DNA of 64,000 nt, taken from contig JAOABA010000024.1 in the NCBI GenBank assembly GCA_026418625.1, forward strand, positions 1 through 64,000. Reading direction: 5' to 3'. Source of the stretch: Candidatus Kapaibacterium sp. (GTDB lineage Bacteria; Bacteroidota; Ignavibacteria; Kapaibacteriales; UBA2268). The stretch's first letter is position 1. Every line of letters starts with the position of its first letter. The notes beneath the pieces were generated by a model. That model was not told the DNA's origin and did not search any database. It was given only the letters and a program-made list of their open reading frames with translations. The position numbers and the translations under genes are program-made. This document shows positions 42,174-44,480 of the stretch, piece by piece.

Positions 42174-42608
42174 CAATAATCCGATTTTCATTCATTTTTT
42201 CGTGAATCATAACAAATTTGTCAAATTCTTCTTGAAAAGTTAATTTTCGATGATGTTCTTTCTGATTTTTGATATATTCAAACACTTTATTAACAATTGA
42301 TTCGCTGACAGAATATACAGCGCAACCACTCTGCCAAGAAAATTTTCCTGGGAAAAAATTATTCTGATTAATGAAATGTGAAGAACTTCCTTTTATTTGT
42401 TTGATAATATCTGTCATTGCTATTTTCGGATTTTGCAAGAATAGGCAATGAACGTGATCTGGCATTCCGTTTATTATTCTTACCGGGCAAAGAATATCTA
42501 TGAATTGTTCCCGAATATAATTGTAAATTTGTTCTTCAAAACGAGGTAAAATGAGCTTTTGTCTGTCTTTGACAGCCCAAATTGCGTGTTATAATATGAT
42601 TGTGACAT
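42163..42608 (-). pseudogene. tnpA: IS200-like (Y1/HUH) transposase, frameshifted
   Basis: The track shows only a 100-residue fragment starting at MPDHVHCLF, but homology-like sequence continues upstream in the same frame: IWAVKDRQKLILPRFEEQ and REQFIDILCPVRIING directly precede it. The natural start, ATG at 42608 (MSQSYYN), is in another frame, and the frame of the body meets a TAA just before HAIWAV. A small deletion near codon 7 therefore breaks the gene. The body keeps the HUH motif (DHVH) and the catalytic-tyrosine helix (EYIKNQKEHH), both typical of IS200/IS605 TnpA. Palindromes lie at both ends. It is probably inactive unless frameshifting restores it. Confidence 0.75.
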
Positions 42609-42616
42609 ATTTTTAT

Positions 42617-42634
42617 AAACCATTAAAATGGTTT
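42617..42634. repeat. AAACCATT palindrome, copy 1
   Basis: AAACCATT-AA-AATGGTTT, perfect 8-bp arms. It lies eight bases upstream of the original start of the IS200-like transposase, where the left-end hairpin of such elements would be. Identical copies occur at 44329 and 44461. Confidence 0.75.
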
Positions 42635-42658
42635 TATAATTTTTTATGATTTCTTTCA

Positions 42659-42678
42659 CCCACGAATAAATTCGTGGG
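42659..42678. repeat. CCCACGAAT palindrome, copy 2
   Basis: Perfect 9-bp arms around AA, upstream of the IS200-like pseudogene and part of the 110-base repeated end. Confidence 0.8.
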
Positions 42679-42779
42679 CTATGTTTTCAATAATTTTTTT
42701 ATTTTCAATTATCCTCTGACTTTTTGCTTTTTCTAATGTTCATATTATAGTCAGATAATATAAATTTTACAGAAGGGTT

Positions 42780-43562: not shown

Positions 43563-43595
43563 ATTCATCCGATGACTTAGAGTCATAGGATGAAT
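43563..43595. repeat. 33-bp palindrome, copy A (downstream of RAYT)
   Basis: ATTCATCCGATGACT-TAG-AGTCATAGGATGAAT: 15-bp arms with one mismatch (A for C in the right arm). Fifteen bases beyond the stop codon of the RAYT gene. Confidence 0.85.
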
Positions 43596-43610
43596 TTGAA
43601 CGAATAAATT

Positions 43611-44183
43611 TTATATTACAATTAATTTTCTTTCAGTTAATTCTTTCAATTCATTTGTCTTAATTATACCCAAAATTAATTCTTTGCTTGGCAGAGTTCC
43701 ATTCCTTAAATCAATATAATCCTGATAACTTGAAAAAAGCCAATCTTCAGCTTTTTCCACTAATCCAGAGCGAATTGGATTTTGATGAATATATGTTAAC
43801 AGGGTTATTAAATAAGAATCTAAGGGAATGAGCTTTGCTTTAGTTTTTTGATTAAAAAGATTACCGTGCCGATTCCACATTTTGTTAAATGAACGAGTAT
43901 ATGACCTCAAAAGTATTGCTATTTGGCTTGAGATTTTTTTAGAATAACCATATTGATATTCATCCGATGACTTAGAGTCATCGGATGAATTACTTCTTTT
44001 CACTTTTACCAAAAAATGAAAATGTGTCGGCATTAAACAATAGCCGATAGTTTCAAAGTAATCATCTAAATAATACCGATATTTTTTAAGAAAATACAGA
44101 TAATTTTCCTCAGAGCGAAAGAGAGCCTCCTCGTTATTCGTTCTATTGTAAATGTGGTAATATGTATTTTCGTAAAATTGCAT
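43611..44183 (-). CDS. REP-associated tyrosine transposase (RAYT/Y1 family), intact
   Basis: A 190-residue single-stranded-DNA HUH transposase of the RAYT branch. It begins YENTYYHIYNRTNNEEALF, has the HUH motif in MPTHFHFLVKVK and ends with the branch-typical YIHQNPIRSGLVEKAEDWLF followed by SSYQDY. RAYT enzymes cut and move REP-like palindromes. Here a 33-bp palindrome lies on each side of the gene, and a third copy is inserted in frame just after the HUH motif, adding residues SSDDSKSSDE. The insertion falls in a loop that is variable in relatives, so the enzyme may still fold. Confidence 0.85.
   Translation of the reverse strand: MQFYENTYYHIYNRTNNEEALFRSEENYLYFLKKYRYYLDDYFETIGYCLMPTHFHFLVKVKRSNSSDDSKSSDEYQYGYSKKISSQIAILLRSYTRSFNKMWNRHGNLFNQKTKAKLIPLDSYLITLLTYIHQNPIRSGLVEKAEDWLFSSYQDYIDLRNGTLPSKELILGIIKTNELKELTERKLIVI
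43958..43990. repeat. 33-bp palindrome, copy B (inside the RAYT gene)
   Basis: ATTCATCCGATGACT-TAG-AGTCATCGGATGAAT: perfect 15-bp arms. The length is eleven codons, and in the coding orientation it has no stop, so the reading frame of the transposase is kept. Confidence 0.9.
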
Positions 44184-44196
44184 TTTTTCCTTTTTT

Positions 44197-44229
44197 ATTC
44201 ATCCGATGACTTAGAGTCATCGGATGAAT
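44197..44229. repeat. 33-bp palindrome, copy C (upstream of RAYT)
   Basis: Perfect 15-bp arms with TAG centre, identical to copy B, 13 bases upstream of the RAYT start codon. Confidence 0.88.
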
Positions 44230-44247: not shown

Positions 44248-44480
44248 CCCACGAATAAATTCGTGGGCTATGTTTTAATTTTTTTTCAATCATTCTCTAA
44301 CTTTTTGCAAAAATAATGAGATTATTTTAAACCATTAAAATGGTTTTATTATTCCTTTATGATTTCTTACACCCACGAATAAATTCGTGGGCTATGTTTT
44401 CAATAATTTTTTTATTTTCAATCATCCCATAACTTTTTGCAAAAATAATGAGATTATTTCAAACCATTAAAATGGTTTTA
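44248..44480. repeat. Two tandem composite palindrome units
   Basis: Each unit reads CCCACGAAT palindrome (44248-44267; 44372-44391), AT-rich spacer, AACTTTTTGCAAAAATAATG, then AAACCATT palindrome (44329-44346; 44461-44478). The period is about 124-132 bases. The same sequence forms the transposase-proximal end of the IS200-like pseudogene, so these look like non-autonomous relatives (palindrome-associated elements) of that element. Confidence 0.7.

Follow-up and report, generated by a model that had tools for sequence, protein, structure and literature searches.

The window analysed here, a stretch of 64,000 nucleotides from a Candidatus Kapaibacterium sp. genome (G000 in the following), encodes a RAYT or TnpAREP-like HUH-Y1 transposase of 190 aa on its minus strand (43611..44183). 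Three copies of a near-perfect 33-bp palindrome, with 15-nt arms on both sides of a variable 3-nt centre, accompany this gene on the same strand. An identical copy lies 13 bp ahead of the start codon (44197..44229), an internal copy is placed in frame inside the coding sequence (43958..43990), and a copy with one mismatch follows 15 bp past the stop codon (43563..43595). Positions and gaps agree with the first-pass annotation of this DNA. All three copies share one orientation and one central TAG, and 100 dinucleotide shuffles give an expectation of zero copies. As a single strand, the 33-mer is predicted to fold into a hairpin (-15.2 kcal/mol, z -8.6) whose stem has 15 bp and whose loop has 3 nt. 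In the coding orientation, two of its three reading frames are open, compared to one of three in the opposite orientation. A 5' GT[AG]G guide at the foot of the hairpin is a canonical feature of REPs and is required by the E. coli TnpAREP. No GTAG or GTGG adjoins the three window copies, and the guide is not consistently present beside the palindromes of the related genome G016 either. Rfam had no match between window positions 42500 and 45000. Two copies of a 116-nt repeat (84% identical; 42612-42727 and 44325-44440), with CCATTAAAATGG and CCCACGAATAAATTCGTGGG as palindromes inside the repeat, enclose the RAYT together with a HicA-like toxin, a UPF0150-like partner and an 81-aa ORF weakly matching GmrSD_N.

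The gene product carries the hallmarks of a class 2 Y1 HUH RAYT. Neither Pfam nor PHROGs provided a family name, and the match to the NF047646 REP_Tyr_transpos profile (3e-15) remains under the curated cut-off. A sequence search of the PDB was uninformative, hence a fold search was needed. Using an AlphaFold model of the enzyme (pLDDT 78), the best PDB match was the E. coli TnpAREP 4er8 (E 7.6e-8, TM 0.54/0.61). The HUH motif is formed by H54-F55-H56 and the candidate catalytic tyrosine is Y131 in YIHQNP, with H54, H56, Y131, N135 and P136 invariant across seven homologues. The enzyme combines an HUH motif, a downstream tyrosine in Y-x-x-(N/Q)NP and a predicted TnpAREP fold with flanking palindromes that have further genome copies, although those elsewhere in its own genome are variants only. 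Judged from profile, motifs and modelled fold, the gene is a RAYT (TnpAREP) with a predicted capacity to cut single-stranded REP DNA, and the annotation as a RAYT with cognate palindromes is well supported. Named relatives of the protein occur in Ignavibacteria, Melioribacteraceae and Kapaibacterium and point to Ignavibacteria as the probable class of the organism. No second RAYT of this kind is present in the 3.3-Mb genome. Purifying selection acts on the gene outside the loop discussed below (dN about 0.2, with dS saturated above 1.6).

The internal palindrome is an insertion relative to homologous enzymes. It supplies codons 65-75, starts at codon position 2 and encodes SSDDSKSSDE, beginning 8 residues beyond the second H of the HUH motif and hence indeed just after it. 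In the AlphaFold model, residues 65-75 lie in and at the end of the loop between beta-3 (54-61), which closes the HUH region, and alpha-C, a long helix (73-102). Seven close RAYTs (64-73% identity), from genomes of the same taxonomic family or one level beyond it, form one tree group with moderate support. The expectation that some relative might lack exactly eleven residues was borne out by G004 (L023), which has no palindrome and a loop shorter by precisely this length (HUH-Y distance 62 vs 73 in G000). Close members without a palindrome have HUH-Y distances of 56-62. The objection that homologues might encode the same residues by unrelated DNA fails, as the nearest homologue with almost identical residues, G016 (SSDDFQSSDD), encodes them by the same palindrome family.

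The same loop holds different palindromes in different relatives. Palindromes are intact in G000, G016 and G014, decayed in G033, G011 and G334, and absent in G004, G025 and G010. The loop contains AGTCATCCGATGACT-TCC-... in G016, two copies of AGATGTGCCACACCT-... in G014, decayed AGATGGAC... in G033, decayed AACCTTCGGAAGGTT... in G011 and AGATGTGCCACGGCT-... in G334. By type, G000 and G016 carry TCATCCGATGACT, G014 and G334 carry AGATGTGCCAC, G033 carries AGATGGAC and G011 carries AACCTTCCGAAGGTT. Flanks and loop are of one type in G000, G016, G014 and G033, and by eye in G011. The codon phase of loop palindromes is 2 or 3 depending on the lineage, which argues for more than one event. The RAYT tree requires at least seven changes between palindrome and none. 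Parsimony inside the seven-member clade is ambiguous and offers no tree-based proof of independent gains; it also allows a single ancestral internal copy whose sequence later changed together with the flanks. Among the strains examined, no two were found to differ by a filled versus an empty loop while being nearly identical in the rest of their DNA, and the sole genome of the same genus, G001, lacks both the palindrome and any RAYT of this kind.

In G014:C261 (L028, L052), the two loop REPs are separated by a 21-nt spacer resembling the spacers between the REPs that flank the gene, which suggests the copying of a REP-spacer-REP unit. The genome of G334 belongs to another family of the same class. 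Palindromes of the AGATGTGCCAC type occur once in this genome, as the internal copy of the RAYT, and those of the TCATCCGATGACT type once, as its 5' flank. Most simply, the RAYT, its flank and an older loop insert may have arrived together, the insert probably being a relic of an earlier specificity. In a second RAYT of G016 (C93; L048, L092), this loop is occupied by palindromic AGATGTCCAACATCATCAGGAAAA units in tandem. This gene has a frameshift and is likely broken, so that the frame is not kept in every case. A palindrome copy additionally forms the C-terminus in G016 (ESHPMTPSHRMT).

Enrichment of palindromes in this loop extends beyond the clade. Among 103 distinct RAYT ORFs, 12 palindromes with a score of at least 12 fell into the 5.7 kb of HUH/alpha-C loop compared to 4 in the remaining 49.5 kb, a roughly 25-fold higher density in the loop. 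The four others all lie ahead of HUH (18.7 kb) and none in the middle and C-terminal parts (30.7 kb). Other ORF-like frames of the same loci contain 0.04 per kb. Loop palindromes were also found in Bacteroidota enzymes with YIHNNP or YIHFNP motifs (L177, L181, L182, L185 and L187) and in an Anaerolineae bin (L091). Flanking palindromes of the relatives often measure 33 bp, each arm having 15 nt. A flank partner of the loop palindrome exists at L163, L177 and L187, and weakly at L091. Cognate flanks of L096, L181, L182 and L185 were not found within the fetched loci, which indicates that cognate pairing is not universal.

The palindrome belongs to a larger family that is also found in unrelated genes. 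A count of the 33-mer across the 3.3 Mb of G000, as proposed in the first-pass annotation, located the exact sequence at the RAYT only, with about 18 related palindromes elsewhere. The concern that the palindrome might be absent from the rest of the genome is thereby removed for the family, though not for the exact 33-mer. G016 contains 44 family copies, in which arm positions 2/32 pair as GC in 17, CG in 13, TA in 9 and AT in 1, and the three central bases are hypervariable and nearly free. Such compensatory arm changes indicate that pairing is kept at the DNA level. The commonest variant in G000, ATTCATCCGATAACTCTGAGTTATCGGATGAAT, lies in frame within T9SS type A sorting domains, which are themselves duplicated. 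The palindromes are embedded there in a longer conserved stretch and thus spread by duplication. G033 has the ATTCATCCGATGACT type in the same loop of sorting domains. In G016, a hybrid histidine kinase has two in-frame copies close together in its ATPase domain (HATPase_c), and a guanylate/adenylate cyclase domain also contains the palindrome in frame. These in-frame REPs of the kinase and cyclase are at loci L227 and L233. Two lines of support for mobility were considered and rejected. Intergenic copies in G000 are no proof of transposition, most variants being inside duplicated T9SS sorting-domain modules, and strict co-occurrence of RAYT and REP fails as proof of mobilisation, with G005 and G019 carrying TCATCCGATGA-type palindromes without a close RAYT.

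We consider it probable that the gene encodes a RAYT with cognate REPs and that one REP entered the beta-3/alpha-C loop of the enzyme's own gene, where it was kept as a passenger peptide. The palindrome would form a hairpin on single-stranded DNA, and the RAYT would cut and paste it. The internal copy would stem from such a transposition, or from gene conversion or recombination with a flanking copy, and would owe its origin to insertion rather than to selection building a regulatory role. A RAYT gene, adjoining its own REPs, is a likely insertion target, and the enzyme itself may have inserted the internal copy. The identical centre and orientation of the G000 copies rather favour recent copying of one from another. 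Retention of the passenger can be explained by a length of 33 nt equalling 11 codons, by two of three frames being open and by a loop tolerant of insertions. A mobile palindrome with a length divisible by three, and with two of three frames open in most copies, should often survive in tolerant loops. The first-pass annotation proposed that such an internal copy would be direct evidence of mobility and of selection to keep the reading frame. The insertion relative to homologues stands, but the shared TAG and orientation would fit gene conversion or recombination with a flanking copy as well as transposition. Similarly, purifying selection acts on the gene outside the loop, but retention of the frame demands little selection with 11 codons and two of three frames open. 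In a more elaborate scenario, which we hold to be unlikely, the loop of this RAYT clade would serve permanently for landing or control, the enzyme's current cognate REP being replaced there time and again. The gene would then record how the DNA specificity of the enzyme changed, and it might contain a built-in hairpin by which it limits itself.

Two further explanations compete with the entry of a REP as a passenger. The internal palindrome might be a maintained cis-acting site, where the enzyme would bind a hairpin of its own gene or mRNA and thereby limit its expression or transposition, with the palindrome sequence tracking the changing specificity of the enzyme. Recurrence of the same loop in lineage upon lineage would fit, as would internal copies cognate to the flanks in G000, G016, G014, L163, L177 and L187, and the changes on both arms between G000 and G016 (ATTC..GAAT vs AGTC..GACT). 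However, internal copies are decayed in G033, G011 and G334 and missing from G004, G025 and G010, the internal copy of G334 is unrelated to its flank, and autoregulation provides no explanation for the same palindromes in frame in unrelated genes. We find this function unlikely. Recombination, gene conversion or replication template switching might alternatively have produced the internal copy from a flank without any RAYT action. The window copies share orientation and TAG centre, whereas centres vary freely in G016, the internal pair of G014 repeats a REP-21 nt-REP layout also found upstream of the gene, and the sorting-domain copies of G000 spread by duplication in a longer conserved stretch. 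The arrival of the first loop copy is left unexplained, however, as are the histidine kinase and cyclase copies of G016. We consider an origin entirely without the enzyme quite unlikely. A chance palindrome or an artefact of metagenome-bin assembly, conceivable for a draft in 58 contigs, has practically no probability and is refuted by the shuffling expectation of zero and by the recurrence of the same arrangement with different palindromes in other assembled genomes.

The window RAYT is not the first with an in-frame REP inside its gene. Genes of TnpAREP subclass 2.4 contain in-frame REPs between HuH and Y in addition to flanking REPs, with the insert region being variable and predicted to be peripheral (Quentin et al. 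2018, PMC6006769). The window RAYT shares flanking REPs and an in-frame REP between HuH and Y with this subclass, but differs in its motifs (PTHFH, LFNQ and YIHQNP vs NH[IFV]H, WQ and YIxNNP). The window enzyme also has a serine extension (FSSYQDY) after the Y motif, while subclass 2.4 lacks a conserved-serine extension after the core (PMC6006769), and the window palindromes lack a GT[AG]G foot. Assessed by motif only, the window RAYT is outside subclass 2.4. Subclass 2.6 of Bacteroidetes has atypical secondary structures, YIH[QN]NP, a serine extension, NH[LIV]H as HUH and a median HUH-Y distance of 82 (PMC6006769). The YIHQNP motif, the FSSYQDY extension and atypical palindromes found by eye resemble this subclass. 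However, the HUH motif of the window enzyme is THFH rather than NH[LIV]H, the HUH-Y distance without insert is 56-62, an alpha-C/beta-4 insertion is missing, and REPs within the gene are unreported for subclass 2.6. In-gene REPs were given as "unique to 2.4" (PMC6006769) and are spread wider than this. Short palindromes in frame in unrelated protein genes, as seen here, resemble intragenic REPs (Di Nocera et al. 2013, PMC3733652) and Rickettsia palindromic elements (RPE; work cited in PMC3733652). Those cases concern other genes, whereas the host here is the enzyme's own gene. A pattern of recurrence and relics at one loop was not found described in the literature searched.

Genes holding present and past REPs in one tolerant loop are natural test material for the switching of specificity. 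To our knowledge, there is little direct evidence for REP mobility by RAYTs. The set comprises current REPs in G000, G016 and G014, decayed ones in G033 and G011, and one unrelated to its flank in G334. These genes also supply, for each enzyme, the exact 33-mer to be used as a substrate. The presence of the same 33-mers in T9SS sorting domains demonstrates that REPs contribute peptide to secreted proteins. In G000, about 15 T9SS type A sorting-domain modules contain the palindrome family in frame (KIHPITLSYRMN), with sorting-domain modules at loci L005, L006, L010, L012, L016-L018 and L189-L202. Some of the modules are solo, without a long upstream ORF. Other modules of G000 have an unrelated palindrome, GTAGAGACACAGCATGCTGTGTCTCTAC, at the same loop, encoding VETQHAVSLQ, and L207, L210, L212 and L215 are similar.
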